From Roridomyces roridus (taxonomy: Eukaryota; Basidiomycota; Agaricomycetes; Agaricales; Mycenaceae): a stretch of DNA of 64,000 bases. The notes under the pieces were generated by a model. The model was not told where the DNA came from, did not search any database, and saw only the letters and a program-made list of their open reading frames with translations. A program made the translations under genes and the position numbers. Positions 1,316 to 63,596 of the stretch are shown here, in pieces. The DNA is taken from contig JARKIF010000013.1 of the NCBI GenBank assembly GCA_029378245.1, forward strand, positions 1,629,997-1,693,996, in the 5' to 3' direction. Position 1 is the first letter of the stretch. Each line of letters opens with the position of its first letter.

Positions 1316-1397
1316 GACCCACGGCGGTGGTCCGCACTAGCACGCGGTTATTGTTCTCACTGCTCAGCTAGTAGTCCGTTCGATTTGGACGTGGGTC
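1316..1397 (+). ncRNA. tRNA-like unit 1
   Basis: 82 nt. The ends GACCCAC and GTGGGTC pair at 7 of 7 positions. The D-like hairpin is GCGG-TGGT-CCGC. The T arm is GTCCG-TTCGATT-TGGAC. A T5 run lies at 1429-1433, 32 nt downstream, a possible Pol III terminator. The family is described in the findings. Confidence 0.7.
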
Positions 1398-1815
1398 ATT
1401 CTTGCCAAGGTACAGGTACAGAATAATCTTTTTGATTATGCTACGTACTTGGTTGACGCATGGCTCAAGTTGTTGAATTTTCAGAAATACGAAAGCTCTA
1501 CGGTTTCTCGACAGCATATGTAGGCCTTGCCGTGCCTAATAAGTTTACTTCTCGACCCGCGTAGTCTTCTGCGGCGCCTGTAAAAATCATCATAGCGTTG
1601 GATTGGGTACATATGGACTTTCAAGGATCTTTGGACAGTTGAAATCCAGAGCAATGATATGGCAATTGAATATTGAGGAGCCTAGCAGACAAGGTGGCGC
1701 CGTTGGTTGAGTTGAACCGTCCTTCGAGGCAATGCCCGGCAGTGGTATCCGGGACAAGACTGCATTGTATCAGTTGAACTTGTTTACATAACCAAAACAA
1801 GAGGAGAGACAGAAA

Positions 1816-1905
1816 GATCCACGGCGGTGGTCCGCGCGTGCACACAGTTATTTAGAACTCTTGAGTCTGTTCCAGCGTGTTGTCCGTTCGATTCGGACGT
1901 GGGTC
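1816..1905 (+). ncRNA. tRNA-like unit 2
   Basis: 90 nt. Ends GATCCAC/GTGGGTC pair fully, with one T-G wobble. T stem GTCCG/CGGAC is perfect and the loop is TTCGATT. T7 run at 1931-1937. Its duplicate is the unit at 24038-24129; the two differ mostly in the central loop. Confidence 0.75.
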
Positions 1906-2129
1906 TTATGGTCACGTTCAGCTTCATATATTTTTTTGGACCCAATGGACACGAAGTAACGCAAGATTTTGCCCCAGCCAGAAGGATTTGGTGATCATGG
2001 CTCAAGGGGTCCGAGTCAAGGAAGGTGGGAGGCTGGGAGCAGGAGACATTCTTGCGATAGCTGGCCAGGAAGGGATAACAGTACGCAGCAGCAAGGCCCT
2101 GTGTACTATGTATTACTTACTACGCACTG

Positions 2130-2163
2130 CCAGTATACGCCCTCGTTCGATTCGAATGGTGTC
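2130..2163 (+). ncRNA. Degraded tRNA-like unit (3' half)
   Basis: A T-arm-like segment with TTCGATTC is followed by GGTGTC and a T7 run at 2187-2193. The 5' half is not recognisable. A matching relic sits at 23803-23830 in the duplicated block. Confidence 0.4.
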
Positions 2164-2418
2164 TCAATCCACGGCCAATGTGACCGTTTTTTTCAGCCAC
2201 TTACAGAGTGGATACTGGCAGAGTCTAGAATCGGCCGGGAGTCGATTTTCCAGACATGGTGTGGCGCTAGCGGATTTCCGAGGCAGGGAGGAACCCAGTT
2301 GAGTCTTGAGCTTGAGATGGGTTTGATCAAGGCCAGAGATTGGCAGAGAGAGGTTGCCCGTGTTCCACCGCGCGCACTCGTTGCTTGCTTCTTGGTCAAC
2401 GAAGACAGGAGAGGGAGA

Positions 2419-2502
2419 GCCCACGGCGGTGGTCCGCGCTTGCATGCAGTTATCGTGTGGTTCTGTGTTCCAGCTTCTTGTCCGTTCGATTCGGAAGTGG
2501 GC
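2419..2502 (+). ncRNA. tRNA-like unit 3
   Basis: Ends GCCCAC/GTGGGC pair at 6 of 6 positions; the closing G-C replaces the A-T seen in other copies. D-like hairpin GCGG-TGGT-CCGC and loop TTCGATT are intact. T5 at 2529-2533. Its duplicate at 23445-23532 has nearly the same scaffold but an unrelated central loop. Confidence 0.75.
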
Positions 2503-2632
2503 ATACATCGTGCGTGGACTCTTTTCTATTTTTGAAGCCCACTTGAGGGAGGACTCAGTCCTACAAAATTCTATGACAACTCTCTGCAAGCATCTATGAT
2601 TTCGGTTGAATCGAGGGAATACTTTCTGCGAT

Positions 2633-3698
2633 TTACTTCTCCGCGCGCAACTTCTGCGCCTCTTCTACAAAGTTCATTAACAGCTCGACATCCCCTCCAG
2701 GAACTGGGTGTTCCTGGGACTCTGCCACCCTAGCAAAGATCTCCGAAATCCCCTCGTATGTTCGGGAGCCTGCGCTCTCCCCCACGAAAGCACCCACCTC
2801 CTCCATTTCGCGGACGAAGCGATAGGCTTTTTGAGGCATGGGGGGCATCAATCGGATAATTTCTGGACGACTCGTCGGATTGGATGCAAAGAAGAGGAGA
2901 CAGACATACGATCGACAAAGGTCGGTTGGGAGAAATTGAGGGCGTGGAGCAGACCTTCGGCGGTGGATGGTGATGACGCGTTTGCGGCTGGAAACGCGTG
3001 AGTTGGGTCATGCATTTGTGTAGGTTCGTACCGAGTATCATGGTTGTAAATAGTCCAATCGTGCCCTTGACGATGCCCTGTAATACCAAAAGTCGGAGAT
3101 AATCGAGAGCAAATGTAAAACATACCGCATGCGCCATCTTTACAGCACTAGCATCACCAATCTTTGCGTCTTTTCCCTTTAAGGGAACCACATTCAACCC
3201 ATACTTGATCGACATGGCGGTGAAATCATCCAAAACCGCTGCATCTTTCGGATCCGCGCAAACGTAAATCGCAGGATTGAACGTGTCCGTGGGCGGTGTG
3301 CCGATGATAGCTCCGTCCAAAAATGTTATCCGCGTTCCCTCGAATAAGGCTGCGAGTTGCTTCGCCGACTCGGGGTTCACTGCGTTGCAATCGACGAAAA
3401 TCAGTGAACGATCACTTGCTGTCGATTTGTATGCGTCTACGACCGATTGTGCTGTGGCAAAGGCGTCGGATGGTGGGACGACGCTGTAGATGCAGGTCGC
3501 GCGTGCCACGATGTCGGCGTAGGTGGCGTGCACCATGTTAGTTGCTGCAGCGCGTTCCCGAGTTGCCTGAGATCGTCCTTCGAGATTGGTGAGTATGGAC
3601 CCGGCGCCAAAGTACGAGAGTCGGGCGGCCAGAGCGGCGCCCATGCCTCCAGGAGCGATAAGCGCGAGGGTTGGTGCTGTGGAAGTGGAAGGAGTCAT
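2633..3698 (-). CDS. 6-phosphogluconate-dehydrogenase-like NAD(P)-binding oxidoreductase, copy 1
   Basis: Predicted cytosolic beta-hydroxyacid-dehydrogenase-type enzyme; the substrate cannot be read from sequence. The N-terminus has a Rossmann start (LIAPGGMGAALAARL), followed by the family's VVPPSDAFATAQ and the lysine-bearing KIGDASAVKMAHA near residue 190. The C-terminal domain continues through small exons (…NASSPSTAEGLLHAL…, …YRFVREMEEVGAFVGES…) to the stop at 2633. Three introns of about 45-50 nt are inferred, joined in frame to about 308 residues, normal for this family. The gene is 1066 bp long, exactly as long as its inverted copy at 22241-23306, and both appear intact. A relic tail of a beta-lactamase-type gene lies just upstream, so hydrolase and dehydrogenase were probably once neighbours in the same orientation. 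Confidence 0.85.
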
Positions 3699-3762
3699 GG
3701 TCGGCTTTACTCGGTCTGAAATTTGATGTGTTTACACATTACGTGCATGTCGGCGGCGGATG

Positions 3763-3818
3763 TTGAAATTTCTGGAACCAAACCTCACGATCTGGCAAAC
3801 TTTCTCCCTCGACTCCGG
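3763..3818 (-). pseudogene. Relic 3' end of a beta-lactamase-type hydrolase gene
   Basis: Read on the minus strand, this stretch encodes a series like VEGESLPDREVWFQKFQ. It resembles the C-terminal tail of genes A and B (LQGETVRERAEVWFSKM). No other part of the gene is present. A similar relic precedes dehydrogenase copy 2. Confidence 0.6.
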
Positions 3819-3989
3819 TCGATTTTGGCAACCAATGATACAAATGCAGCATTACCATCTAGCACGGAATCAGAGTTGGGTGAATAACGACTGGCAGCAT
3901 CCGAATCAGTCTTCCGAGCTGCAAAAGTTCAGCTGAAAACAGCATGGCCATGGGTTTCACGGAAAAGAATGCAGGAAAGATGTCGCATC

Positions 3990-4073
3990 ACCCGACCCCG
4001 ACTCGAACGGTCTCCTGCTGGACAAATTTAACCCTGTGTCATTACTTGCAGGCGCGGACCATCCGCAACGGGC
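3990..4073 (-). ncRNA. tRNA-like unit 4
   Basis: Acceptor-like ends are reduced to CCCG/CGGG. D-like hairpin GCGG-ATGGT-CCGC, middle stem CCTGC/GCAGG and a T arm with TTCGAGT are present. A weak T4 equivalent lies at 3963-3966. Present only in the left arm. Confidence 0.6.
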
Positions 4074-4232
4074 TTGCCCTAATACCACAAAGGGATGCTT
4101 AGGAAAGTTGATGCAGCACAAAAACAGGCATCACTTCGAGGCGTCCTGAAGATACTTACAAAGGATTTCAACAACAGAAGAAATGGGCAAAAGAAAAAAA
4201 TTACCAGCGAATTCGAAAGCATCTCCAATAAG

Positions 4233-4303: not shown

Positions 4304-4362
4304 CCATCGTTTTGATTCAAATATTGACGGAACTCACTCCCATCTTGTAAAATCTCAAGACA

Positions 4363-6612
4363 CTACTCCATTTTCGAGAACCAAACTTCTGCACGCTCTC
4401 GAACAGTTTCGCCCTGAAGAGGTTCAGCCCCTTGCCCGGGACCCCACACACCAATGAGCGCAAATCCAACATCTTCTCCGTCGACTTCAAATTCGGCCTC
4501 GAACTGGCCCGTCTTCCTTACCCAGGGCACATCGCCGTCTAGCTGCAACGGATTTTCAGTTCAAGCTTCTCAACGCATACAGAGGCAGACACTCACAACA
4601 TTCAGCACGGTCGCATTGAACTTATCGCCCTCATAATGCGACAACAGCAAGTGGTTGGACGCCGTTGTGTCGTGTCTCGCAATCAACATGGGAACCGCAG
4701 AGTCGAGCACGGTGGGCAACAGATCTCCGAATGTCTGAGAGATATCAGTGCAAGAGGAGCCACTAGTGGCGTTATGCCAAAAGAGACAAAAGTCGCGGCT
4801 GCGGTATCCTGCGTTGTGGTATTTTCCGGCGAGCGCGGTGTAAGGTACCGAGGGAGGTGCAGCATCTTTGGGACGGGGAAGCGAAGGCGTTGGGGCGGCT
4901 GCCACTAATTTCTCTCGATACCTGCGCTTATGTTAATCGAGGACTGGATATAAACATTCTGACGACAAACCGTGCGGTCCAATCAATGTATGGATGGAGA
5001 GAAAGGACTTCGTCGACGATGCGGTACTTGATAGATTCCCTGATGAATGTTCCGAGCTCTTCGTCATTCGTCAGGACGGCGACGCCAAAGTTTTCCGATG
5101 GGAATCGAGCGACTTGACTCTTGAAGCCTTGGCCATGTCCGTAAAGAGATTACAGATGAAGACGAGAAACTGCAGACCTGGGATCGAGCCGCCGTGCTGA
5201 AATAAATGAAGCATCAAACGAACAGTGTGGCCAAGGATGCCTTACCTCGATCATTTCTGCGACGGTGAATGAGAATCACAGTACGAGTCGTGCCGCGGAA
5301 AACTCACCGAATCCTCTGTAGGTACCACGCATCTGCCCACCGCCATATACCACCGGCGAAAGTTCAGGATACCCCCTGTTCGAGATGAGGACGGAAAACT
5401 GGACAAGGATGACGACGCACGCAATAGGCTTATATACAGTCACCCCAGTCGCAACTTTCTGAATCACACTGGCCGGAATGACACTCTCGTTGGCTTGATT
5501 GGTTCCCTCCCGCAAGAGCGCTTGCAGCCAGATGGCCTGTAGGTCCATGTGAGCATGGGGGAGAACTGAGCACAAAAGCATACCATATCGTGTGCGCTAG
5601 AGATGACTCCACCAGCGCCCGAGATCACTAGACGAGAATGAGTATCAGCTCGAGTAACGAAGGTACTCCTCACTGTGCGTGCTACTTATACTTTGATCCC
5701 AGAAAGGAAGGACTCGGACGTTGCCTTGGTCGAAAGGATCGTCAGTCAAGTTGGCGTCCTGCCTCGTGAATCCGTCGGCCAATCTGCCAGTCGCGACTGC
5801 GTCGTCATAAAAATATGTGGTAGCATTCAATCCAAAGGGCGCGAAGACATTGTCGTGGACGTATTGCTCGAACGGGATGTCCACCAGCGTCTTTGAGAAC
5901 GACGAGAGGACTGTATACATGTGGTTGTTGTACTGCGTCTGTTCCCGGAAGCCTGCAGACGGTCGTAGATATTGAAGTCGAGCAATCTGGATGCGAGGTT
6001 AACAGACAGACGCACGAGCAAAAAAAAAGCGACAATATCTTCAACTCCGTCCTCCCAACCCTCTATGAGATCATGCAGCGGAATTCCAGTACGGTGGCTC
6101 ATAATATCGACGATCGTGCTCTCGCTCGTGGCCACCGGATCCGCGAGCTTCCACCCAGGAACAATAGACGCGACTTTCGAATTCCACGAAATCCCGGGCG
6201 ACAGCGTCTCGTTGGAAATCAAAAGCCCCGTAGCCAGCACATCAAAAAGCTAGGCAGCGTTTTCAGAACCTAGAAAACTGTGAGGTGTACCACAACGCAC
6301 CTTGGAATTCGATCCAAGAGAAAAGAGTGTATGCTCATCGACTTTGTCTCCAGCACCAGTAGCGTTCCCATACCCTTTGCTCTCGAGTTTCCATGTCCCC
6401 GAAGCGGTCTTGCGCGCCACCGCCACTCCAGCGCCCCCAGGCGTCTTGAACTCTGCCAAGATCTCTTGGATGGCTGCGTCCAGCCCGACATTGAGTATCG
6501 GGGCCTCTTCGTCCAAGGAGATGGAGGAGAATGCCTGCTGTTGCTGTCCCAACACAGCTGCCAGGCTTGCGGCAGGAAGGGCGCAGAAAGACAGGAAGCC
6601 TGCTAGATGCAT
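4363..6612 (-). CDS. Secreted beta-lactamase-fold serine hydrolase, gene A
   Basis: Serine hydrolase of the beta-lactamase/penicillin-binding fold (PF00144 type); in fungi such proteins are usually esterases or peptidases, and the substrate here is unknown. A signal peptide (MHLAGFLSFCALPAASLAA) starts the protein. Exon 1 (6301-6612) ends at LFSLGSNSK, whose S-x-x-K would hold the nucleophile. The second motif is Y-N-N in QYNNHMYTV near 5920, and a third, H-G-G type, lies in a short exon. A C-terminal lipocalin-like part (ALAGKYHNAGYRSRDF, then VPWVRKTGQFEAEFEVDGED) ends at 4363. About eight short introns are inferred. Genes B and C are close paralogues; A and B lie head to tail. Confidence 0.75.
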
Positions 6613-7230
6613 GCTACTGGGAGGGCAGAACGAGACAGTCCGCAGCGATAAGTGGTATCAGGTGGTATCTCAGCGCTGCGCGCGCAGTAACCGGTTCACG
6701 CTTCCCATCATGTCCCTGAATTATTCACGCGCAAGATTGGCGCAAATATCAGTTTTCAATTTTGCGCCTTGGCAAATCAAGTGATACGATTGTCAGCTCC
6801 GAATGGCCGTGGCCCGTGAGCCGGTAGAGATACACAATCCGCCAAAGACCGACGGGGCATGAATAAAGGATGAGAGCGATGGTTGGCAACCAATGTTCGA
6901 GGCAGCGAGCAGACAAGGCGTCACAAGGGGCAGCCGAGTGGACGTGTCCATGTCAGCACTGGCGATCAATCAGTGTCGAAGACTTGACCTCTTGCGTGGC
7001 GAAAAAAAACATGCAAAGCATTGAAGTAATGGTTACAGTACTAGTGTAGATATCGTAGTTACGTCGTCATTCAAACCAAGCAAAAAATTGACGAAGACCC
7101 AAGACCCAAGGGAGGCCCGAGGGAGGCGACATGGGGATGTGAGATCCAACTAAATTGCTCGATGTCACGCGTATATCCAAGAAGACGACGACGGGGTTAG
7201 CCCGCAAAGACGTACGGATGTCCGTGGACC
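4363..7230 (-). repeat. Left arm of inverted duplication, hydrolase block
   Basis: Gene A and about 600 bp of upstream DNA match 16590-20455 in opposite orientation. Similarity continues through non-coding DNA, for example 6780-6870 against 16900-16990, so it is a segmental copy and not just paralogous coding sequence. Confidence 0.8.
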
Positions 7231-7292
7231 ATCGGGAATGGGAGGCCAAGGTTGAGAGGCGGAGGTTGTTAGAATTTTGAATGTGAAAGATA

Positions 7293-23306: not shown

Positions 23307-23444
23307 ATGTAGAAGGTATCCCTCGATTCAACCAAGATGCTTGCAGAGAGTTGTGACATGATTTTTAGGGTACACTGAATCTCCCTACTCGGTACTTTCC
23401 TTCACTTCAGTGGGCTTCACAAAATAGATGAGTGCACAACGTAT

Positions 23445-23532
23445 GCCCACTTCCGAATCGAACGGACCACAAGCTGGAAAAGAGGCTCTCGTAATGGACA
23501 ACTGTGTGCAAGCGCGGACCACCGCCGTGGGC
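23445..23532 (-). ncRNA. tRNA-like unit 5
   Basis: Duplicate of the unit at 2419. Ends GCCCAC/GTGGGC and hairpin GCGG-TGGT-CCGC are unchanged. The core of the central loop (about 20 nt against 16 nt) is unrelated to its partner. Confidence 0.75.
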
Positions 23533-23802
23533 TCTTTCTATCCTGTCTTCGTTGAACAAAAAGCAAGCAACGAGTACGCGCGGTGGAACCACGGGCAACC
23601 TCTTTCTGCCAACATTCTGGCCTTGATCAAACCCATCTCAAGCTCAAGCCTCAAGGCCTCAAGCTTCAAGACTCAACTGGGTTGCTCCCTGCCTCGGAAA
23701 TTCACTGGCGCCATACTATGTCTGGAAAATCGACTCCCCGGCCGATTCTAGACTCTGCCAGTAAGTAGTGGCAGAAAAAAGGTCACATTGGTCGTGGATT
23801 GA

Positions 23803-23830
23803 GACACAACTCGAATCGAACGAGCGCACA
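23803..23830 (-). ncRNA. Degraded tRNA-like unit (3' part)
   Basis: Duplicate of the relic at 2130-2163: a TTCGATTCG T-loop, a GTGTC end, and a T6-equivalent run at 23775-23780. Confidence 0.4.
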
Positions 23831-24037
23831 CACTGTCAGTGCAATAAGTAATATGCTCTCACAGGGCCTTGCTGCTGCATACTGTCATCCCTTCCTGGTC
23901 AGCTATAGCAAGAATCTCTCCTGCTCCCACCTTCCTTGACTCGGATCCGTTGAGCCATGGTCACCAAATCCTTCTGGCTGTGGCGAAATAGTTACTTCGC
24001 GTCAATCAGGTCAAAAAAAGCATGCTCATGACCCTAA

Positions 24038-24129
24038 GACCCACGTCCGAATCGAACGGACAACAAGCTGGAACAGACTCGACAGTTTGTGATAACTGTG
24101 TGCAAACGCGCGGACCACCGGCGTGGATC
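24038..24129 (-). ncRNA. tRNA-like unit 6
   Basis: 92 nt. GATCCAC/GTGGGTC ends, CGG-TGGT-CCG hairpin, perfect GTCCG/CGGAC T stem. T7-equivalent at 24013-24019. Duplicate of the unit at 1816-1905. Confidence 0.75.
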
Positions 24130-33088: not shown

Positions 33089-33126
33089 GACCTACGCCCG
33101 AATCGAACAGGCTACTGCTATGGGTC
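33089..33126 (-). ncRNA. tRNA-like unit 7, internally deleted
   Basis: Only 38 nt. GACCCA and a terminal AGGTC flank the T arm (CCTG-TTCGATT-CGGG). The D-like hairpin and most of the central loop are missing. A T5-equivalent lies at 33065-33069. Confidence 0.55.
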
Positions 33127-34503: not shown

Positions 34504-34592
34504 GACCCACGCCCGAATTGAACAGGCAACCTGCGTGCAATGTGGAGCACTGGCACGGAGTAATCAGACCATCAGCCGCGGCGCGGTGGGTC
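34504..34592 (-). ncRNA. tRNA-like unit 8
   Basis: Ends GACCCAC/GTGGGTC are perfect. The T loop reads TTCAATT. The D-like hairpin is altered. First member of a same-strand array to 36358. Confidence 0.65.
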
Positions 34593-34850: not shown

Positions 34851-34941
34851 GACCCATTACCCGCGCCCGGATCGAACAGGTTCTTGTATGCAATACATGC
34901 CGAGTGCCACTGTGTGCAAGTGCGGACCAACCGCATGGGTC
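34851..34941 (-). ncRNA. tRNA-like unit 9
   Basis: GACCCAT pairs with ATGGGTC at 7 of 7, a compensatory C-to-T change against the family. D-like hairpin GCGG-TTGGT-CCGC. A few extra bases lie between T arm and 3' end. T5-equivalent at 34833-34837. Confidence 0.65.
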
Positions 34942-35070
34942 TTCCCTTTCCTCAACCCAGGGTAGAATGTAGTCTGCTCTTTGTCGCAGACACGGACTTG
35001 CCCCCTGTACCGCTATCAACGAATCGGCCTGCAGTAAAAAAAAATGGATATGCAATGATGCATCATTAAC

Positions 35071-35147
35071 GCACAAGTCCGAATCGAACGGAACAGCAGC
35101 TGACCGAGTACCAGTGGGTGACGGGTGCGGGACGTTCAACGTTGTGC
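35071..35147 (-). ncRNA. tRNA-like unit 10
   Basis: Ends GCACAA/TTGTGC form a 6-bp stem of a different sequence from the family norm. T arm TCCG-TTCGATT-CGGA is intact and the D-like hairpin is lost. T9-equivalent at 35036-35044. Confidence 0.55.
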
Positions 35148-35359: not shown

Positions 35360-35446
35360 GATCCCACGGCCGAATCGAACGGGCTGTCTGCGTGACGCAT
35401 CGAAAACTTTGTGATCTTCTGCAGGTGCGGGCCATCCGCGTGGGTC
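35360..35446 (-). ncRNA. tRNA-like unit 11
   Basis: GACCCAC faces GTGGGATC (one bulged A). Hairpin GCGG-ATGGC-CCGC, start of the middle stem CCTGC, T arm CCCG-TTCGATT-CGG. T5-equivalent at 35327-35331. Confidence 0.65.
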
Positions 35447-35676
35447 TGGCTTGCATGGTGCCCTCAACTTGAGGAAGACTGTACCAGCGACTCGGTGGAT
35501 TGCACTGAGAACAAACTTCAGACAATCGGGACTGCAACTCCCGAGTCCCAAGCTCTACTTCAACTGTCTCCGGCCTTGGGCGGCGGTCCCCGAGCTCCTG
35601 AATCCCCTTAAAAGATTGGATTCAGCAGAACACATATGAAAAAAAGCAAAAGTAGAGGTCTGCATGCAGACCAACC

Positions 35677-35768
35677 GCCCATGCCCGAATCGAACAGGCC
35701 GCCTGTGTAAACTGGGATCCGCACTAAGGATGACATCAATGTGGTACAGGTGCGGACCACCGCATGAC
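35677..35768 (-). ncRNA. tRNA-like unit 12
   Basis: The middle stem is CCTGT/ACAGG, a paired change from CCTGC/GCAGG. Hairpin GCGG-TGGT-CCGC intact. End stem GTCAT/ATGGC-like with one wobble. T7-equivalent at 35639-35645. Confidence 0.65.
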
Positions 35769-35989
35769 CCTCTGTGCACAACTGAATTCAATAGGTGGAC
35801 ATATGAGTTTGCTTTCAGACATAGCTGAGGCGGAGAGTTACTCATTTTCGACGGCAGGCGTCTCATATGTGCCTTGGGACATGAGTCGCCGGACGCGCAT
35901 GGTCCCGCAATCGAGAGTCTGTTGGAGGCTTGTGTTGGAAGAGCTTGGAGCCCAAAAGAAAAAGAGGACGTGCTCCGCACCCGGAAAAT

Positions 35990-36054
35990 GTCCCATGCCT
36001 GAGTCGAACAGGCCACCTGAACCAGGAGAGAATCCTGTTGAATTCGAGAGGGAC
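35990..36054 (-). ncRNA. tRNA-like unit 13, D hairpin lost
   Basis: 65 nt. End stem GTCCC/GGGAC, T arm CCTG-TTCGACT-CAGG, no GCGG-TGGT-CCGC. T5-equivalent at 35959-35963. Confidence 0.5.
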
Positions 36055-36273: not shown

Positions 36274-36358
36274 GACCGACGCCCGAATCGAACGGGCTCC
36301 CGCGACGCAGATGGATGGATGACGTGTTGCTGGCAGGTGCGGACCACCGCAGAGGGTC
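36274..36358 (-). ncRNA. tRNA-like unit 14
   Basis: End stem GACC/GGTC with two mismatches inside. Hairpin GCGG-TGGT-CCGC and T arm CCCG-TTCGATT-CGGG perfect. T5-equivalent at 36251-36255. Last unit of the array. Confidence 0.65.
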
Positions 36359-39290: not shown

Positions 39291-39664
39291 GCTTGGTAAT
39301 TCAAGTATGATTCCTCTTCGACCGTCGACGCCGCCTGGTTCTTGTTGCGTGCATCAAGAGTCTGGTCTGTTTATAACCTGGACCAGGGCCCGGGACTGTC
39401 TGTGAAGCGCAAGATTCTAAACAAGCTACGGTGCGTCAAGATGTACTCTTGGGACCAACGCGCTCTAGAACATGACTGCTGGACGGTTGGACGACTCTTC
39501 GGGTTGTCCCCTGTTGTCCCAGACTCCCAGTAAAACAGAGATATGATCATGAGCAGGCAGCTTGTTCGATTCAGGCGCACGTTTCGATTGCCGCATAGCC
39601 AAGCGTTTTCCACTCTTAGAGCCGCATGGAAAGAAATCCTTGGCGGCACCCGTACGGGGGTTCC

Positions 39665-42718: not shown

Positions 42719-42817
42719 GCCCAGCGAAAACGGGCGTACTGGTGGCATGGATTATAACGGTACAGAGGTTGTTGATTTGATGCTGGAAGAAGCAGGCCTG
42801 TTCAATTCGGGCTGGGT
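42719..42817 (+). ncRNA. Degraded tRNA-like unit
   Basis: GCCCAGC at the 5' end pairs with GCTGGGT at the 3' end; T arm CCTG-TTCAATT-CGGG. D hairpin absent. Confidence 0.4.
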
Positions 42818-42940
42818 CACTGCGTGCATCGTCGGATATTTTTGAATCAAGTTCAAATGCAACTGGCACAGAGAAAAAAGGTATATGGGATGAAGCGCCG
42901 GAGCGGGGCCGTAGCCACAGGGAATACTCGATTCAATTCG

Positions 42941-43026
42941 GACTTTGACCAGGCGATGGTCCGCACCTACATTCAATTTGAACAAAATTGAGTAGAAGCG
43001 GGTGTCTGTTCGATTCGGGCCCAGTC
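42941..43026 (+). ncRNA. Degraded tRNA-like unit
   Basis: Ends GACT/AGTC; GCGATGGTCCGCACC and TTCGATTCGGG recognisable. T6 run near 43050. Confidence 0.45.
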
Positions 43027-43234
43027 TTTGTCCGAAGAAAGAACTCGATGCTTTTTTTCGGATTGAGTTCGCAACCCGCCGCCCAGGACACCGGTGAGAA
43101 CTGAGCTCTTTCTTCGACGAGCCTTGTATATATACTGAGTGAGTAGACTGGACTTGTTCACGCGTTCACAGGTTGCAATCCCTCGCAACCGCGGCCACAG
43201 GATAACGAAATCGTTCTGTGGACAAGGATATATA

Positions 43235-43323
43235 GACCCATGGCGGTGGTCCGTGCCTGTGCTCAGTGTTCTGGTTCTTCTTTTCTAGCTTATCCATTTG
43301 CCTGTTCGATTCAGGTGTGGGTC
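43235..43323 (+). ncRNA. tRNA-like unit 15
   Basis: GACCCAT/GTGGGTC ends, GCGG-TGGT-CCGT hairpin, T arm CCTG-TTCGATT-CAGG. T11 run at 43343-43353, the longest in the family. Confidence 0.7.
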
Positions 43324-44013: not shown

Positions 44014-44120
44014 AATATGTTTCCGTGCTTACATATGATGAACTTGTGGTGAATCAAAAAAAACTTGATTCAGTTCCGAGTTTGACCAGGTAAAACGGCG
44101 ATTGATGTGAGAAATAGAAA

Positions 44121-44203
44121 GACCTGAGCGGTGGTCCGCACCTGCATGACTTTAGAATGCGAGCACACTTGGAAGCAGGCGCCTGTTCGATTCAGGCCGG
44201 ATC
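44121..44203 (+). ncRNA. tRNA-like unit 16
   Basis: GACCTG/CGGATC ends with one mismatch, GCGG-TGGT-CCGC hairpin, CCTGC/GCAGG middle stem, T arm GCCTG-TTCGATT-CAGGC. T5 at 44236-44240. Confidence 0.7.
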
Positions 44204-44239
44204 TGTACCGGTGAAAATAAAGCACTATAGTGCTCTTTT

Positions 44240-45490: not shown

Positions 45491-45558
45491 CATACTGGCT
45501 TGCAGGAAAGCACAGTTTTTCTCCGCGCGGTGCTCTAAATGCGGACTACAATGAGGAA

Positions 45559-45629
45559 GACACCTACAGCAGTGGTCCGCACCTGCTCAGCATGGTTCGG
45601 CAGGCGCCCGTTCGATTCAGGCTTGTGTC
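45559..45629 (+). ncRNA. tRNA-like unit 17, shortest complete form
   Basis: 71 nt, close to true tRNA length. End stem GACAC/GTGTC, hairpin GCAG-TGGT-CCGC, middle stem CCTGC/GCAGG closing a 13-nt loop, T arm GCCCG-TTCGATT-CAGGC. T6 at 45650-45655. Confidence 0.75.
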
Positions 45630-46041: not shown

Positions 46042-46123
46042 GACCTGCGGCGGTGGTCCGCACTTGCATGCCGTGGGGCTCCATAGTATCAGAAGCAGGT
46101 GCCTGTTCGATTCAGGCCGGGTC
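46042..46123 (+). ncRNA. tRNA-like unit 18
   Basis: Middle stem ACTTGC/GCAGGT keeps pairing through a T-G wobble. Ends GACC/GGTC; hairpin and T arm perfect. T4 at 46152-46155. Confidence 0.7.
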
Positions 46124-46234
46124 ATGGGGGACCGCCAATGTCTTCAAAGCCTTTTGCTCCCAAAAGAGCGCCCGGTTGTTATATCGGGGCCGCCAGGCTG
46201 GTGATTGTGGCAGTGGGTGCAACCTTGAAAGAAA

Positions 46235-46318
46235 GACCCGCGGTGGTGGTCCGCGCCTGCATTCAATTTGAATGGGTCTCGGAAATTTTGCTGGCAGTGT
46301 TCGATTCAGGCGTGGGTC
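46235..46318 (+). ncRNA. tRNA-like unit 19
   Basis: GACCCGC/GTGGGTC ends (one G-T pair), GCGG-TGGTGGT-CCGC hairpin with a longer loop, TTCGATT T loop. T6 at 46343-46348. Confidence 0.65.
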
Positions 46319-46575: not shown

Positions 46576-46663
46576 GACCCGCGGCGGTGGTCCGCACCTG
46601 CGATCCATGTGTCGTTTCGCATACGAATTTAGACGCAGGCGCCTGTTCGATTCAGGCCGGGTC
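46576..46663 (+). ncRNA. tRNA-like unit 20
   Basis: GACCCG/CGGGTC ends, a compensatory A-T to G-C change. Middle stem CCTGCG/CGCAGG, T arm GCCTG-TTCGATT-CAGGC. T7 at 46683-46689. Confidence 0.75.
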
Positions 46664-46783
46664 TTTTGAGCTGTGGTTTGGATTTTTTTGGGACCGGTTT
46701 GCAACAGAATAGGGCACCTGGTTCTTCGTTCGAGTGAGCAGTGATAGGCCGGTGAATGGGTGGAACTGCGTGAGTGAAAGAAA

Positions 46784-46869
46784 GACCTGCGGTGGTAGTC
46801 CGCACCTGCATGGAATAGCTGATATATTCAACATAGCGAAGCAGGCGCCTGTTCGACTCAGGTTGGGTC
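46784..46869 (+). ncRNA. tRNA-like unit 21
   Basis: GACCTG-type start with TTGGGTC end; hairpin GCGG-TAGT-CCGC; middle stem CCTGC/GCAGG. T7 at 46889-46895. The DNA after the T run (GGGACCGGTTT) is shared with unit 20. Confidence 0.7.
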
Positions 46870-46977
46870 TTTGGGGCTGTGGTTTGCATTTTTTTGGGAC
46901 CGGTTTAGTTCGCCCACTTCTTCGACTGGGAGCTGCCACGCTGGTGGTTCTGTGTGCAACCGCTTGAACGAGAGAAA

Positions 46978-47074
46978 GACCTACCGCAGTGGTCCGCACC
47001 TGCATGCAGTAGTTGAGGTTCCAGAATCCATCACAAGATTTCGGTAGGCAGCCTGTTCGATTCAGGCGTGGGTC
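46978..47074 (+). ncRNA. tRNA-like unit 22
   Basis: 97 nt. GACCTAC/GTGGGTC ends with one T-G pair. T arm CCTG-TTCGATT-CAGG. T5 at 47096-47100. Tandem-duplicate partner of unit 24 at 53398; the central loops differ. Confidence 0.7.
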
Positions 47075-52192: not shown

Positions 52193-52295
52193 GATAGTGA
52201 TCTGTATCTGTCAATGGCCGTGGGTTGATTGATTGTTGCACGAGGCGATACTCGTAGGAGTGAGTCTTCTTGCAGGGAGTCTGTTTAGAGCAGTA

Positions 52296-52315
52296 GCGCT
52301 CCGGGGCCTATAACC
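52296..52315 (-). promoter_or_regulatory. Putative primer-binding site of Copia element
   Basis: Next to the 5' LTR the sense strand reads GGTTATAGGCCCC. The first bases resemble the complement of the initiator tRNA anticodon arm used by many Copia elements. The match is partial. Confidence 0.4.
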
Positions 52316-52614
52316 TGTCAAGATCTGTAATAGCGCGAATAGCGCGTACCTCAGTTCACCCGCAATGTGGGATAAAAGACTGATATATTAATCACCTGTA
52401 ATAGCGCGAATAGCGCGTACTACGATACAAGTAAGTAAATAAAATATATAAAGTGAAAGGCTGTGCTCACCCTCAGTTCACCCGCAATGTGGGATAAAAG
52501 ACTGTGGGTGAGATGCGAGCATGAGCAGTATATATACGTAGAGTGTGGTATGAATCTAAGAAGAGATGGGAACTGTCAACGGAGGCCCGGGCGGAAGATC
52601 ATCATTTCTTGACA
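52316..52614 (-). repeat. 5' LTR of Copia element
   Basis: 299 bp, identical to the other LTR except for about one base. In sense direction it precedes gag. TATATATACG at about 52531 may be the promoter region. Confidence 0.93.
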
Positions 52615-53187: not shown

Positions 53188-53269
53188 GACCTGCGGCGGT
53201 GGTCCGCGCCTGCATGCAATAGGTTGTCTTTCGCATCGAGGCAAGTGCCTGTTCGATTCAGGCTGGGCC
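53188..53269 (+). ncRNA. tRNA-like unit 23
   Basis: GACCTGC start, hairpin GCGG-TGGT-CCGC, T arm CCTG-TTCGATT-CAGG. End stem imperfect. T6 at 53302-53307. Tandem partner of unit 21. Confidence 0.65.
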
Positions 53270-53397
53270 TTTGAATGAGCAACATGTACAGTGGGCACAG
53301 CTTTTTTGGACCGCAAGAGTGCGCACATACGTAGTTAGTTCTTCGACTGGGAGCCGCTAGGCTGGTGGTTACCTGGTCCAACCTTGGATCAGACAAA

Positions 53398-53485
53398 GAC
53401 CTACCGCGGTGGTCCGCACCTGCATGCAATGTCTTGTAATTGAGCTCCATTTCGGCAGGCAGCCTGTTCGATTCAGGCGTGGGTC
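53398..53485 (+). ncRNA. tRNA-like unit 24
   Basis: GACCTAC/GTGGGTC ends, CCGC-GGTGGT-CCGC region, middle stem CCTGC/GCAGG, T arm CCTG-TTCGATT-CAGG. T5 at 53511-53515. Partner of unit 22. Confidence 0.7.
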
Positions 53486-56844: not shown

Positions 56845-56929
56845 GACCCATCCCCGAATCGAACGAACAGTCCTGCTGAAAATGCAGCCACCGATATATA
56901 GTGCGCAGGTGCGGGACCACCGCTGGGTC
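56845..56929 (-). ncRNA. tRNA-like unit 25
   Basis: GACCCAG/ATGGGTC ends (6 of 7), GCGG-TGGTC-CCGC hairpin, middle stem CCTGC/GCAGG, loop TTCGATT. T9-equivalent at 56822-56830. Upstream palindrome-like CACTGCAGTA at 56965. Confidence 0.72.
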
Positions 56930-58100
56930 TCTCTATGTGCAGCTCCCAAGCTGATTCAGATATACACTGCAGTACTTGTGTTTGGCCAACAGGAAGTTTG
57001 TTCCCGTTGAGCGGAGGTTGCACCACATGGATCCGATTCCGAGGCTCGTTTCTTGAACCCACGGCCGAATAAAGGTCGGAACAAAGGAGTGCGTCCGGGA
57101 GTTGGGATAACCGGAGCACCGGGGCACCGAAGCACCGATCATTTGGTGATCTCGGTGTTTTGCCGCTCGGCACAAACAAGCAAACACATCAGATCATTAC
57201 TCCTGAGTCCTGACTTCACCATGACCACGCCCATTGTCCACGCCTGCCCCCGCCAGCCCACCTGGTTGCCTCGCGAAGTCTGTTGCCTTCCACGTCCCTC
57301 ATCCCTCGTCGCCGTCGCATCGCGACAACGGTCGGAAACAAGTCGGAAATCGGCATTGCATCAAAGTGGCAATATCGCAAGTCCCTCACGTTGCCAACCC
57401 GCATGCCCACGGCCACAACAGCTCTTGGAAACATCTCAGGGTTGATGGAGGAGCAAGGGAGGACAGAAACACTCATGGCGAGGCTCACCTTGGTCTCACC
57501 CGCACTCGTAAGTCGCTATTCATCTTGATTCTTGATCATGAAGTCGCCCAAGCGTCCAGATACTGTCCCTCCCACCGAGTGTACGTCCAGGCCCTCATCC
57601 TTTTGCGCATCGACTCCCATCCCGCTCCACCCCTTCTTCTCTTCCGTGACTCAGATGGACATGTTCCCACCTCATCGCTGGCCCCTCGAGTGCATATCTG
57701 CCGCCTTCCCCTTCTCATCCCGAACTTGTCCCAGCCCATCTGCTCGTCTCGCCCCCGCATCGCCCCCGCTTTGCGCCCCAAATCTGCCGCTCCCGCCGTT
57801 CGGCTGCTTCACCCTTCTCTCATAATAGTATTAGATACAATGTGATTCGATGCTGATTTAATATTACATGGCATTGAGTATGAACTGGTCAATGGAGAAA
57901 GAGGGAGTGAATGGAGGACTGTCCAACGAGCCAGAGACGAGCGAGGTGATACATGTTGGCCGTGATGGCAGCCGCAGCGGCAGATCACTGTAGCACAGCC
58001 ATCCGATCGTCGGTGCTGCGGTTATCCCAACTCCCGAATTTTGTGGAACAAAGTTTCTTTTCTTTTTTTTGAATAAAATAAAGTGAGACGACCGCTCAAT

Positions 58101-58185
58101 GACCCATTCCCGAATCGAACGGGTTTTCCTGCTGGAAAGATTGCCAACCCAAGACGGTGTGCAGGTGCGGGGCCACCGCTGGGTC
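58101..58185 (-). ncRNA. tRNA-like unit 26
   Basis: GACCCAG/ATGGGTC ends, middle stem CCTGC/GCAGG, perfect T arm CCCG-TTCGATT-CGGG. Upstream TATATAAAGG and palindrome CACTGCAGTG (58217-58226). Confidence 0.72.
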
Positions 58186-58363: not shown

Positions 58364-58453
58364 GACCCATTCCCGAATCGAACGGGTTATGCTGCTGGAA
58401 AGATTTCGATCATTCAGTGGACAATGTGTGCAGGTGCGGGCTACCGCTGGGTC
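58364..58453 (-). ncRNA. tRNA-like unit 27
   Basis: Same scaffold as unit 26 with a different central loop. Hairpin GCGG-TAG-CCCGC, CTGC/GCAG. T5-equivalents at 58331-58341. Palindrome CACTGCAGTG at 58481-58490. Confidence 0.72.
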
Positions 58454-58620: not shown

Positions 58621-58673
58621 GACTCGTGCCTGGATCGAACAGGCTGCCTGCTTGCAAAGGTTTATCCACGAGC
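58621..58673 (-). ncRNA. tRNA-like unit 28, D hairpin lost
   Basis: 53 nt. CTCGTG/CACGAG ends pair 6 of 6, unlike any other copy. T arm CCTG-TTCGATC-CAGG. T6-equivalent at 58585-58590. Confidence 0.55.
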
Positions 58674-58868
58674 TTGTCTTGGATGGCGAGCATGCTCGGA
58701 GGAGCAGCAGGATCAAATTGCTTGGAGCTGTTGAAATCTCCCGACAATCAGGGATCTGGTACTTGTGGTTGTGATAAGAGTAGAGCAAAAATTGAGAGAA
58801 TAAAAGGTGTATAATACTGCCACTGGGGGACTCCAAAAAAAAACACTTTGCTCACAAACTACCACAAC

Positions 58869-58949
58869 GTCCACTCCTGAATCGAACAGGGACTATGCTG
58901 GTACGTAGATGCATGACGACTGAACGCGGATGCAGACCACTGCAATGGC
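58869..58949 (-). ncRNA. tRNA-like unit 29
   Basis: Hairpin GCAG-TGGT-CTGC: both strands of the stem changed together against GCGG/CCGC. T arm CCTG-TTCGATT-CAGG. End stem weak. T9-equivalent at 58835-58843. Confidence 0.6.
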
Positions 58950-59237
58950 TTCATTGATCGTTAGAATTCGCTCCACAACAGAGCAAAGCTGGTGCCATCA
59001 GTCTACTTCCCACGGTTGAATCTGCGGTCAAAGGAGTTTTCTGCGACAATTCGGCGGAACTTCTCCACAACTCACTTACTTGCCACCAAATGAGAGTGTT
59101 CCTGTGAATATGCTGCCTCAAAAAATCGGGTGCATAGGCTGCTCGTACCGGTAACCCAGTGAATCGGTGGACCCCAGTCTCAGGTGGGATGCCGGAGACA
59201 AGTATTTCTGGTGGGTTCGTCTTGAACAAAAATCGGA

Positions 59238-60728: not shown

Positions 60729-61344
60729 GGGCGAGGGAGAGAAAAGACGACAAGAGACGCGTCGTGCGCGTCTGGTTTTTCAAACAAGCCGATGATCGGC
60801 GTTGCGTAGGACTGATTGGTGTTTCATCGAACTGCGGCAGACTGCGGTTTATTGGGACTCGCCGTTCTACCATGGGGAGCTGAGCTGCGGGCCAAGCCAT
60901 CACGATGGCTCTTTCCTGATGCCTGATGGAAGCCACGTGTCAAAGCGCAGCAAAGCGCCAAGCAGTTGACTGTTCTTATCAAACGTCCCGTTCTGCCGAG
61001 TCCCGCGATCATTTCGGCACTCCTCTTTCTGGAGTCCGTAGTGAGTCTCTTTGTAAGCCCGCCGACCCTTTCCCATCGGCTCATCCAGTTGAACCTGCGT
61101 CTCCGTTGGTTGAGTGCGCACCCACATTGAGCAAGAGTTTGCTTCGTTTCCAGCAAAAAGAAATAGCGCGCGCACTGAGCTGCATGGCTGGAGCCTGGAT
61201 CAAACAAGCGGGCCTGCCTCATGGGAGGGGCGGAGGGCCACCGCCTCCAGCGTTTCATCACACCGTCGAGTGAGTGTTCGTCTCGTTGAGAATTTAGCAT
61301 CCATTGGTCGCATAGAGAGATACATAGTGAAATTGCGAAAGAGT
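60729..61344. other. Intergenic with one tRNA-like unit
   Basis: Contains the unit at 61187-61251. No protein gene recognised. Confidence 0.5.
61187..61251 (-). ncRNA. tRNA-like unit 30, divergent end stem
   Basis: 65 nt. Ends GCTGGAG/CTCCAGC pair at 7 of 7 although the sequence is unlike GACCCAC/GTGGGTC. D-like hairpin GCGGTGG…CCGC, T loop TTTGATC. T5-equivalent at 61155-61159, 28 nt away. Confidence 0.6.
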
Positions 61345-62137: not shown

Positions 62138-62720
62138 GGTGGTGGGTTGGAAGAAGAGATGGGAGAAGCTGTGAAAGTCCAGGCTGTGTATATATATGTA
62201 TGGGCGGTGCCGAAATGCCCAAGGAATCTGTCTCACGTCAATCGGATAACTGGAAGAGTCCAGAGAGGAGGTGGCAAGCGGTGGCAAGCGGTACACGGCG
62301 CTGCAAGTAGAGGGAAAGCTGGATACGGAGGGAGACTGGGAAAGTGTTAGCCCCTCTTCGGCAGTAGAAGGGTTCAATAGGGGTGGCTTTGTGACTCGAT
62401 TTCTGATCCGTCGGTATGACTCGCGGTGAAGCTTGGGTGAGGCAAATGCGGCAGGTGAAGGGTATGGTGTGGTACAGGCGACGATCTATGGCGATGGTAC
62501 GCAGACCAAGGGAAGTCGGTACATATCGATGGTGGTGGGAGATAAGAAGCGTTTCAAACTCCGATCATGATTTGATTGCCGTCAGATGTTTCTTATGCTG
62601 TTCTCGATGTAAGAATCGGATCCGTGGCACGGTTCAATCATGTGCGTATGCTAGTAGGATGATCGGCACTGAGCCAGAAAAGAAAGAAAAAGAAAAAAAG
62701 AGGGGGCGAACAGGATGGAT
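62138..62720. other. Intergenic
   Basis: Includes a TATATATATG motif near 62190-62200, a likely TATA region for the oxygenase gene, and a duplicated AGGTGGCAAGCGGTGGCAAGCG near 62270. No gene recognised. Confidence 0.45.
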
Positions 62721-62804
62721 GTCCCACTCCCGAATCGAACAGGACTCACTGCCAAAACATGGTCGACGGGTGTTGAGTGCAGAGGCGGACCACCGCCGCG
62801 GGAC
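62721..62804 (-). ncRNA. tRNA-like unit 31
   Basis: GTCCCGC/GTGGGAC ends pair with one G-T; hairpin GCGG-TGGT-CCGC; T arm CCTG-TTCGATT-CGGG. T7-equivalent at 62693-62699. Confidence 0.7.
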
Positions 62805-63021
62805 GTGTTTACCTAGTCACACAATATGCTCATATGCAGACTAGAGTTTGTCGTGCCTCGCGCTGGTGGCATTCCCACGGTTGAAATGCTTCTGACCCGC
62901 CGGACATAAATACTGATCCAAACACCGAATATCTAACAGTTTGCTTGCTGAAATTCGGCTTTCAAACTCATTTTTTTTCTGTCAGCTCGACGTTTGCAAA
63001 AAAGCCGACCAAGAGAGCCAC

Positions 63022-63113
63022 GACACGCGCCTGAATCGAACAGGCTCCCGCTAGCTAACTTTACAAGCAAATCAAAGAAAAGTTGGCGGGCGCGGACCCG
63101 CCGCAATAGAAGG
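63022..63113 (-). ncRNA. tRNA-like unit 32
   Basis: 3' end CGTGTC with T arm GCCTG-TTCGATT-CAGGC. The 5' end stem is lost. Middle GCCCGC/GCGGGA-type stem. T6-equivalent at 62998-63003. Confidence 0.6.
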
Positions 63114-63224
63114 GTGATCAAGTGTCTAAACAACTCGTTCGTGATGGCCTTGAGCCGGACGTTGGATGTGAGCAATCCCGGCACACCACAAAAGTATCAA
63201 CTGTATCGACTACATACTATGCAT

Positions 63225-63270
63225 GAAGGCCGAATCGAAACAGGCTCCGGCGGATCAATACACCTTGAAA
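63225..63270 (-). ncRNA. Degraded tRNA-like unit
   Basis: T-arm-like CCTGTTTCGATTCGG with an inserted T, and a short TGATCCGCC remnant of the 5' half. Confidence 0.3.
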
Positions 63271-63506
63271 GTGGGCTCTCAGATCTCAGACGTCGCATAG
63301 CCGTTGCTGCAGTTGAATATCAACCGGGTGGTATAGCCTATGTGGGCTGAAATGGGAATAATGAATTATTCAGCAAAAAAGCTTCCGGAGACCCGGATAT
63401 AGACTCGAACCAGTCCACGGGCACTTTTGCAGGGGAAGGTATTGGTGTCCCATAGGAGGTATTCCTGAAGTAAATGCTGGTCCGAGCATAAGTACGACCA
63501 AGCCAT

Positions 63507-63596
63507 GACACGCGCCTGAATCGGACCGTTAGTAGAGGATCGTCGATTCCTAAGACTTCACATTCAACGGATGCGGACCACCGCAATACACGTGTC
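63507..63596 (-). ncRNA. tRNA-like unit 33
   Basis: GACACG/CGTGTC ends pair fully, a compensatory set of changes against GACCCA/TGGGTC. Hairpin GCGG-TGGT-CCGC intact. T loop TCCGATT. No clear T run within 40 nt. Confidence 0.65.

Follow-up and report, generated by a model that had tools for sequence, protein, structure and literature searches.

The window, a 64,000-nt stretch of the Roridomyces roridus genome, contains repeated tRNA-like units that, as judged from the sequence, probably represent an undescribed, fast-evolving multigene family transcribed by RNA polymerase III (Pol III), whose products would be tRNA-like non-coding RNAs. The units share an anatomy, carry a T-run at a fixed distance past the acceptor stem, show paired change in two stems and, between diverged copies, change more slowly in the core and the T-run than in the flanks. 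From these features we infer that the units are transcribed, processed and act as stable structured RNAs.

A covariance model (R1), proposed in the preliminary description of this DNA, was built from 25 window units. At E<=1 it matched the window 43 times, and at E<0.01 34 times; all 25 training units were among the 34, leaving nine independent matches, and the earlier count of at least 33 copies in 64 kb was borne out (Table 1). No R1 match at E<=0.05 was found in 40 kb of the same genome (L045-L048). TTCGATT occurred 35 times in the window compared with 10.3 expected, and modules of a T arm (at least 4 bp) with a downstream T-run were found 39 times in the window and 0 times in the reversed (uncomplemented) window. 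Together with the R1 matches, the data indicate that repeated units of the anatomy first described are real, extending from 1316 to 63592.

Table 1. Units and weaker candidates in the window; Tn at +x is a run of n T located x nt past the acceptor stem.
Feature	Position	Strand	Evidence
Unit with 7-bp acceptor, D-like hairpin, inner stem and T arm; T5 at +31	1316..1397	+	R1 72.4 bits; cloverleaf fold, z -3.67
Unit, T7 at +25	1816..1905	+	R1 81 bits
Unit, CCTGC/GCAGG stem absent or weak, T5 at +25	2418..2503	+	R1 80.6 bits
Unit, T4 at +22	3989..4074	-	R1 39.3 bits, E 6.7e-9
Unit, CCTGC/GCAGG stem absent or weak, T4 at +19	23444..23533	-	R1 75.6 bits
Weak, reduced module (T arm), T6 at +21	23802..23838	-	R1 13.2 bits, E 0.093
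Unit, CCTGC/GCAGG stem absent or weak, T7 at +18	24038..24129	-	R1 70.3 bits
Reduced unit, little beyond acceptor and T arm, T5 at +19	33089..33126	-	R1 29.3 bits, E 3.7e-6
Unit, D region altered, T4 at +28	34504..34592	-	R1 30.8 bits
Unit, T5 at +20	34858..34941	-	R1 58.3 bits
Weak unit, T9 at +25	35070..35129	-	R1 20.7 bits, E 8e-4
Unit, D loop 5 nt, T5 at +29	35361..35446	-	R1 60.3 bits; minimum-energy fold non-cloverleaf
Unit, T7 at +30	35676..35771	-	R1 52.5 bits
Weak unit, T5 at +26	35990..36054	-	R1 22.1 bits, E 3e-4
Unit, T5 at +18	36274..36358	-	R1 66.8 bits
Weak candidate, T4 at +22	39493..39583	+	R1 15.3 bits, E 0.025
Weak candidate, T5 at +19	42773..42819	+	R1 12.6 bits, E 0.13
Unit, T7 at +24	42946..43027	+	R1 54.9 bits
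Unit, CCTGC/GCAGG stem absent or weak, T11 at +19	43235..43323	+	R1 67.9 bits; minimum-energy fold without T arm
Unit, T5 at +31	44120..44204	+	R1 66.4 bits
Unit, inner loop short, T6 at +20	45561..45629	+	R1 53 bits
Unit, T4 at +27	46042..46124	+	R1 65.3 bits
Unit, T6 at +24	46235..46318	+	R1 63.1 bits
Unit, T7 at +18	46576..46664	+	R1 69.9 bits; cloverleaf minimum-energy fold, z -2.31
Unit, T7 at +18	46784..46870	+	R1 56.7 bits
Unit, T5 at +21	46978..47074	+	R1 72.5 bits
Unit, T6 at +31	53188..53270	+	R1 71.1 bits
Unit, T5 at +25	53398..53485	+	R1 79.9 bits; cloverleaf minimum-energy fold, z -2.42
Unit, T9 at +14	56845..56931	-	R1 58 bits
Unit, T4 at +22; TATATAAA immediately upstream	58101..58185	-	R1 62.1 bits; minimum-energy fold non-cloverleaf
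Unit, T5 at +22	58364..58453	-	R1 59.7 bits
Weak or reduced unit, T6 at +30	58621..58674	-	R1 20.8 bits, E 7e-4
Unit, T9 at +24	58868..58951	-	R1 55.9 bits
Weak candidate, T5 downstream	61186..61252	-	R1 24.5 bits, E 8e-5
Unit, T7 at +21	62721..62804	-	R1 70.8 bits
Unit, T6 at +18	63022..63112	-	R1 39.3 bits
Weak unit, T-run absent within 110 nt	63507..63592	-	R1 17.4 bits, E 0.0065

The units had been described as dispersed at about one per 2 kb; they are instead clustered, partly in tandem, with a spacing of ~170-240 nt in dense arrays and a gap from about 4.1 to 23.4 kb without an R1 match at E<0.5. Their strands change largely blockwise (plus at 1.3-2.5 kb, a single minus unit at 4.0, minus at 23.4-36.4, plus at 42.9-53.5 and minus at 56.8-63.6). 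The claim that they lie between genes on both strands holds for the strands; its gene part was checked in a subset, where Pfam matches above cut-off in 7 ORFs (20 of 57 long window ORFs scanned) overlapped no unit. The window is the end of its contig. Further clusters are present elsewhere in the R. roridus genome, and a genome-wide count, as had been suggested, located one 20-nt 3'-end pattern at 111 places, alleles included, with 0 for the reversed control. A set of 90 units was hand-picked from the R1 matches in the window and at other loci of the genome. It retained 36 of the 43 window matches (those at 61186, 39203, 1058, 42622, 18412, 38857 and 2144 were left out); at the other loci, matches that overlapped or were allelic, along with many weak ones, were left out, and a few alleles remain. 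T-runs are present at most of the seven omitted window matches too.

The acceptor and T arm of the units have tRNA geometry. A T stem of at least 4 bp was formed at 102 of 123 distinct TTCGATT sites (shuffle mean 65.7, maximum 76; 1000 shuffles) and an acceptor of at least 6 bp in 43 of 56 anchored units (shuffle mean 25.4, maximum 33; 300 shuffles), where the shuffles leave the relatedness of the units in place. The paired-change test proposed earlier thus favored a tRNA-like fold in the acceptor and T stems, but not in the D-like hairpin and the inner stem, whose covariation stayed within shuffles (33/56 vs. mean 29.6 and 34/56 vs. mean 28.6, respectively). The CCTGC/GCAGG stem, originally listed as a common feature, was seen in many units but was absent or weak in several (2418, 23444, 24038 and 43235), and a few modules, such as 33089-33126, retain little beyond the acceptor and T arm. 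Folding energy was modestly below that of shuffles (z -3.67 to +0.66, median about -1, 18 units), and the minimum-energy fold was not a cloverleaf in 4 of the 18. Automatic T-loop parsing gave 106 candidates with many false D arms, of which 51 were retained and 27, the best parsed, used for loop statistics. The D loop was mostly 4-5 nt, and in place of a 7-nt anticodon loop the 27 units carried loops of 27-39 nt (27-35 nt in 26, 39 nt in one).

A T-run of four or more (T4+) was located at +11 to +42 past the acceptor in 86 of the 90 units, and one of five or more (T5+) in 68, compared with 9.1% and 3.1% of random 32-mers and with 4 and 1 of 90 upstream stretches. The median position of the first T4+ was +22 in units and +4 in tRNA genes of the same genome (19 of 20 loci; L077, with two tRNAs, was left out). 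Inside the unit body, T5+ occurred in 1 of 90 and T4+ in 11 of 90. The oligo-T run at about +22 is a feature absent from the preliminary description. A reading of the A-T5-7-G pattern as an Sm site was dropped in favor of a terminator, as the 88 preceding bases comprised 36 A, 35 C and 17 G. The proposed B box stood: GTTCGATTC in the T arm is B-box-like, as the TTCGATT excess also indicates, and this core is nearly invariant, the most invariant stretch of the unit alignment. A B box near GTTCGANTC lies within the putative gene, as in Pol III type 2 genes. The proposed A box, TGGTCCGCACCTG, was unconvincing; by eye, a better fit is a truncated A box whose last bases are the D-loop GG.

Divergence between copies was compared in 118 segments (the 90 units and 28 further matches, alleles included), with pairs sharing members and the core taken as the 5'-terminal 27 nt plus the 3'-terminal 31 nt of the unit, loops included. 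Under a strict rule, 9 pairs among the 90 units aligned over at least 80% of the unit +-110 nt at 60-97% identity; a laxer rule gave 98 pairs among the 118 units and alleles with flank divergence under 32%. In 13 pairs with flank divergence of 3-10%, divergence was 0.080 in flanks, 0.176 in the leader, 0.137 in the loop, 0.161 in the trailer and 0.079 in the core, so that leader, loop and trailer diverged at roughly double the flank rate. In 31 pairs with flank divergence of 20-32%, the core was at 0.109 and the T-run at 0.082, compared with 0.23-0.25 in the flanks. Core and flanks changed alike in the 13 close pairs and in 21 near-identical ones (8/1217 vs. 17/3604), so that constraint is visible only between diverged copies. 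Transcribed tRNA genes have a raised mutation rate. The divergence profile and the terminator-like T-run at a fixed distance support a putative Pol III origin. Allelic SNPs between two contigs, C98 and C15 (leader 0.025, core 0.017, inner 0.027, trailer 0.022; near flanks 0.003-0.004, elsewhere 0.015), were set aside because part of the signal came from aligned paralogues. Common flanks were almost confined to members of one cluster, a pattern as after local duplication.

In the proposed mechanism, local duplication would expand the family into clusters. The internal B box would recruit Pol III, perhaps aided by a truncated A box within the D-like arm, and transcription would stop at the T-run ~22 nt past the acceptor. 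The transcript is predicted to fold into a compact cloverleaf with a ~7-bp acceptor, usually 1-2 nt, a 4-bp D-like hairpin with a short GG-containing loop, a ~5-bp inner stem in many units with a ~27-35-nt loop and, after a few bases, a canonical T arm; A and then U would be favored past the acceptor. Trimming of the leader and trailer would be expected to depend on RNase P and tRNase Z, as it does in tRNA. Ordinary tRNA maturation is an assumption for the units, since the Rfam tRNA model (RF00005) gave no match at E<=10 on window units or in 7 other loci. Owing to the oversized loop, the RNA should not decode unless the loop is shortened, e.g., by splicing.

The units might instead be mobile-element relics with a tRNA-like Pol III promoter and no function of their own, either SINEs, for which such promoters are typical, or solo LTRs of Helenus-type TRIM retrotransposons. 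The many diverged copies would fit this unlikely explanation, but the cluster-confined flanks and the ~170-240-nt spacing of dense arrays argue against it, and the one retrotransposon LTR pair in the window (47402/52312) has no unit inside. The predicted Helenus structures are reported to give no support for function (PMC10886601), whereas the core and T-run of the units are kept relative to flanks between diverged copies.

It is quite unlikely that the units are odd or decaying copies of intron-containing tRNA genes (anticodon near NCA, Cys- or Trp-like) that arose by tandem duplication, some of which might be spliced and charged. The anticodon-like loop had R at place 6 in 25 of 27 units, T at place 7 in 22, C at place 4 in 14 and A at place 5 in 12; the loop lengths fit 7 nt plus an intron, and same-genome tRNA matches that span 98-133 nt point to similarly sized introns in true tRNAs. 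ARAGORN called four units in 23 other loci as tRNAs (Pro, Tyr, Trp and Ala; all its calls there were on units), which keeps this reading under consideration. Against it, ARAGORN made 0 calls in the window, where the Rfam tRNA model also failed on the units, its four isotypes differ and the "anticodon" triplets vary widely. The D loop is shortened, the ~22-nt trailer is kept in units of several clusters, and, unlike in pseudogenes, the core is still constrained at 20-32% flank divergence. The earlier view that the units are unlike normal cytosolic tRNAs agrees with the Rfam result but not with the four ARAGORN calls.

Action at the DNA level, with B-box clusters binding TFIIIC untranscribed and affecting chromatin, is very unlikely. 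The invariance of the B-box-like core would suit it, but the fixed-distance T-run, the paired change in acceptor and T stems and the accelerated divergence of leader, loop and trailer between close copies point to an RNA being made. RNase P/tRNase Z processing signals in longer Pol II non-coding RNAs, as mascRNA is in MALAT1, are extremely improbable: the compact D arm and short variable region are mascRNA/menRNA-like, but nearly every unit has its own T-run ~22 nt downstream, dense-array units recur every ~200 nt, and the mascRNA-menRNA model (RF01684) matched no unit.

The tRNA-like body could conceivably be a processing module for a genome-encoded, hypervariable small-RNA library, from which tRNase Z would release a ~22-nt U-tailed trailer; we consider this decidedly improbable. 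The first trailer base was U in 74% of the 90 units. Trailer length is kept while the sequence changes ~2x as fast as flanks in close copies; such fixed length with free sequence is unusual and directly testable. A guide/target role was not borne out for the one unit of 90 searched genome-wide for near-perfect pairing (up to 3 mismatches): the trailer and loop segment of unit 53398 (25 nt each) matched only themselves and two allelic contigs. Exact 12-mer complementarity of outside-window units to the window showed no excess over mononucleotide shuffles (trailers 2 vs. 4.3, loops 8 vs. 8.4). If the units are expressed, the mushroom makes a large, fast-evolving, multigene-family-like set of tRNA-shaped RNAs, probably outside translation, which would offer natural tests of the uses of the tRNA elbow and acceptor/T stack in the absence of decoding and of the extent to which transcription by Pol III increases mutation. 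Other agarics may harbor comparable sets that have escaped notice, given that the window units go undetected by the Rfam tRNA model and few of those elsewhere are called by ARAGORN.

The preliminary description knew of no named family with this architecture, which holds at Rfam 15 cut-offs, where no family was found for the units; among the papers listed by literature searches, none describes such a family in fungi, judged by titles and abstract openings. No E<=10 match to RF01684 (cut-off 42.5 bits) or to tRNA-Sec (RF01852, cut-off 47 bits) was found in the window or 7 loci. Their genome-wide bests were 21.4 bits, among 68 of 23,625 candidates scored, and 26.1 bits, among 53 of 11,601, respectively, none on a unit. 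Cytosolic tRNAs share with the units the 7-bp acceptor, TTCGATT T arm, D-loop GG, internal B box, A past the acceptor and T-run terminator, whereas the units have a D loop of mostly 4-5 nt and, where best parsed, a ~27-35-nt loop replacing the 7-nt anticodon loop, and the first T4+ lies at ~+22 instead of +4. tRNA-Sec has a 4-nt TGGT D loop and a long variable arm; that D loop is common to the units, which have a 4-bp D stem and lack the long arm. mascRNA and menRNA have a compact tRNA-like fold with a small D arm and little variable loop, as do the units, but the units add their own terminator-like T-run, tandem clusters and a long inner loop. Viral tRNA-like/miRNA transcripts (TMERs) and tRF-1 trailer RNAs likewise consist of a tRNA-like module and a 3' extension with a terminal U run, whereas the units have short trailers and, in the few inspected by eye, hairpins were small or absent. 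Helenus TRIMs resemble the units in that numerous tRNA-like sequences bearing Pol III promoter boxes occur in fungi, including agarics (PMC10886601), but the units have no LTR around them in the window, have cluster-confined flanks and keep their core between diverged copies.

A covariance model (R1) was trained on 25 of the tRNA-like units in the window. Within the window it returned 43 matches at E ≤ 1, including 34 at E < 0.01, 25 of which were the training units themselves. A model-free search for modules that combine a T loop of the form TTC[GA]A[TC][TC] with a T stem of at least four pairs and, some 8-45 nt beyond the acceptor, a T4+ run found 39 modules in the window versus 0 in the reversed window. 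The data support the family of at least 33 units proposed in the preliminary description as real and apparently undescribed, clustered rather than dispersed, tRNA-like and equipped with Pol III signals.

In the best-parsed units, a 7-bp acceptor was usually followed by 1-2 nt, a 4-bp D-like stem with a loop of TGGT, TAGGT or similar, a single base that was often A, and a 5-bp inner stem (e.g., CCTGC/GCAGG). The inner loop was 27-35 nt long in 26 of 27 units and 39 nt in the remaining one, with R at place 6 in 25/27 and T at place 7 in 22/27; 1-4 nt separated the inner stem from the T arm, which had a 5-bp stem and the loop TTCGATT. The bases after the acceptor were A (60%) and then T (74%). 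Units on contig C224 had a 5-nt D loop, TAGGT, and the D arm of units on contig C179 was parsed as GTGG-TCGG-CCAC, with a longer loop as the alternative parse. A clear inner stem was absent from several window units, and a few modules were pared down to little beyond the acceptor and T arm.

Against shuffles, which do not control for ancestry, the T stem formed at least four pairs at 102 of 123 distinct TTCGATT sites (mean 65.7, maximum 76; 1000 shuffles); it did so at 1 of 6 such sites in a unit-free 40 kb. Among 56 sequence-anchored units, at least 6/7 acceptor pairs were present in 43 (mean 25.4, maximum 33; 300 shuffles) and a 5/5 T stem in 35 (mean 17.9, maximum 24). The tRNA-like fold described previously was thus borne out for the acceptor and T stem, whereas the D-like stem (33/56, shuffle mean 29.6) and inner stem (34/56, shuffle mean 28.6) of these units lay within the shuffles. 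In an alignment fitted to the model (A3), 117 double-change cells were counted versus 50.6 in shuffles; paired cells amounted to 81.6% in the acceptor helix and 94.4% in the T helix, and the D and inner helices were badly aligned (50.4%, 16.0% and 27.6%). Folding energy z values over 18 units spanned -3.67 to +0.66, with a median near -1, and lend weak support to the tRNA-like fold. The MFE structure was cloverleaf-like by eye in 14 of the 18, the exceptions being the units at 35361, 43235 and 58101 and a C179 unit.

In 90 units hand-picked from R1 matches (a few alleles included), the first T5+ run, or else T4+, was located at a median of +23 nt from the acceptor end (quartiles 20-27) and was missing in two. 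Between +11 and +42, T4+ was present in 86/90 units and T5+ in 68/90, compared with 9.1% and 3.1% of random 32-mers; the mirror-image upstream stretch carried T4+ in 4/90 and T5+ in 1/90, and A5+ was found downstream in 2/90. For 19 tRNA genes of the same genome, the median T4+ position was +4 (range 0-40). The trailer, from acceptor end to T-run, kept its length across clusters, and its sequences looked unrelated between clusters. Given this longer trailer of maintained length, the units cannot be ordinary tRNA genes that merely happen to have a T-run nearby. It is quite unlikely that the trailers carry a hypervariable small-RNA repertoire; a genome-wide search for near-perfect pairing with 1 of the 90 units found no targets.

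Rates of change were compared in pairs with flanks sharing words, aligned over the unit ±110 nt, with the core defined as 27 nt at the start plus 31 nt at the end of the unit; the pairs have members in common. At 3-10% flank divergence (13 pairs), differences were 81/1008 upstream and 73/913 downstream in the flanks, 40/227 in the leader (before the acceptor), 59/745 in the core, 40/292 in the loop, 45/280 in the trailer and 3/76 in the T-run, and the leader (13/13), loop (11/13) and trailer (10/13) changed faster than the flank. A stricter 9-pair set gave 0.35 for the trailer, 0.23 for the leader and 0.20 for the loop versus 0.11-0.13 for flanks. At 10-20% (33 pairs), the values were 0.15-0.17 for flanks, 0.20 for leader, 0.19 for loop, 0.21 for trailer, 0.10 for core and 0.05 for T-run; at 20-32% (31 pairs), only the core (0.11) and T-run (0.08) clearly differed from the flanks (0.23-0.25). 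Twenty-one near-identical pairs held too few differences (trailer 6/445, core 8/1217, flanks 17/3604). The core and the terminator-like T-run are therefore constrained between diverged copies, and the unpaired, presumably transcribed parts change faster in close copies, which would fit either mutation raised by Pol III transcription or diversifying selection. Transcribed tRNA genes have a raised mutation rate.

The window is the end of its contig (C35) in an assembly of 90.8 Mb and 501 contigs, in which both alleles are present at least in part. Its last ~13.5 kb was matched by contigs C98 (99.7%) and C15 (99.0%), both running on past the window; R1 gave 81 matches at E ≤ 0.05 on 170 kb from these contigs, none of which fell in the 40 kb of fetched pieces L045-L048. 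In the array beyond the window, the two alleles (L039-L044 versus L045-L055) showed sizeable insertions and deletions relative to each other, and copies of units were rearranged. Further clusters were found on C224, C179, C334, C105 and C61, and at 1.46 Mb on C35. The pattern GTTCGATTCRGGCGTGGGTC, with up to two mismatches, yielded at least 111 matches genome-wide versus 0 for the reversed-pattern control. The count of matches includes alleles and covers one 3'-end type only, so it does not give the copy number or set an upper limit to it.

Other features of the window
Feature	Window position	Description
Copia-type retrotransposon	47402-52611	amid units; pair of direct repeats (99% identity), each at least 300 nt long
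Inverted segmental duplication	1762-3905 and 22022-24179	86% over ~2.2 kb
Tandem duplication	4357-9252	copy spacing ~2.93 kb; individual pieces 87-95% similar
71-nt inverted repeat pair	44251-44321 and 45425-45494	86% alike; near two units
Tannase ORF	55225-56025	best match a Roridomyces roridus protein
GC-rich stretch at contig end	63760-64000	paired CATACGAA/TTCGTATG motifs, by eye

The Copia-type element, with gag, integrase-side and RT regions in separate open frames, is probably a young insertion, and the GC-rich stretch may be where a mobile element ends. The inverted duplication holds an NAD-binding-domain gene plus tRNA-like units. Elsewhere in the genome, a 76-nt tRNA match with an identical score of 56 bits occurred at 25 places (alleles included). 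One of these (L065, Ile TAT) shared its upstream flank with the similar L060 (Ile TAT) and L061 (called Leu TAA), so either duplication or a mobile element may account for the spread of these copies.

No Rfam 15 family reached its cut-off in the window, in agreement with the earlier statement that no named family was known to have this architecture. At E ≤ 10, three matches in the window and eight in seven other loci were all below cut-offs, and none belonged to the tRNA, tRNA-Sec or mascRNA families. One of these eight, to RF03015 at 2855-2913 of piece L058 (27.8 bits, cut-off 42.7, E 0.076), overlapped a C179 unit, probably by chance. Genome searches yielded nothing above cut-off among 68 of 23,625 candidates for RF01684 (mascRNA) and 53 of 11,601 for RF01852 (tRNA-Sec).

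ARAGORN called 0 tRNAs in the window and four in 23 other loci (Pro, Tyr, Trp and Ala), every one on a unit. The calls show a predicted fold close to that of tRNA and are compatible with an origin of the units as odd or decaying copies of an intron-bearing tRNA gene, which we nevertheless consider unlikely. A mobile-element origin, with the nearest rival being Helenus, a group of retrotransposons described from some agarics whose LTRs are tRNA-like (PMC10886601), is disfavored because flanks are common almost only to units within one cluster (98 of 6903 possible pairs) and the unit core is constrained. Judged from sequence, the units probably represent a gene family for stable tRNA-like non-coding RNAs: Pol III would transcribe them, and tRNA enzymes would mature the transcripts. 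The tRNA elbow requires GG in the D loop and TTCGA in the T loop, and the units have both.
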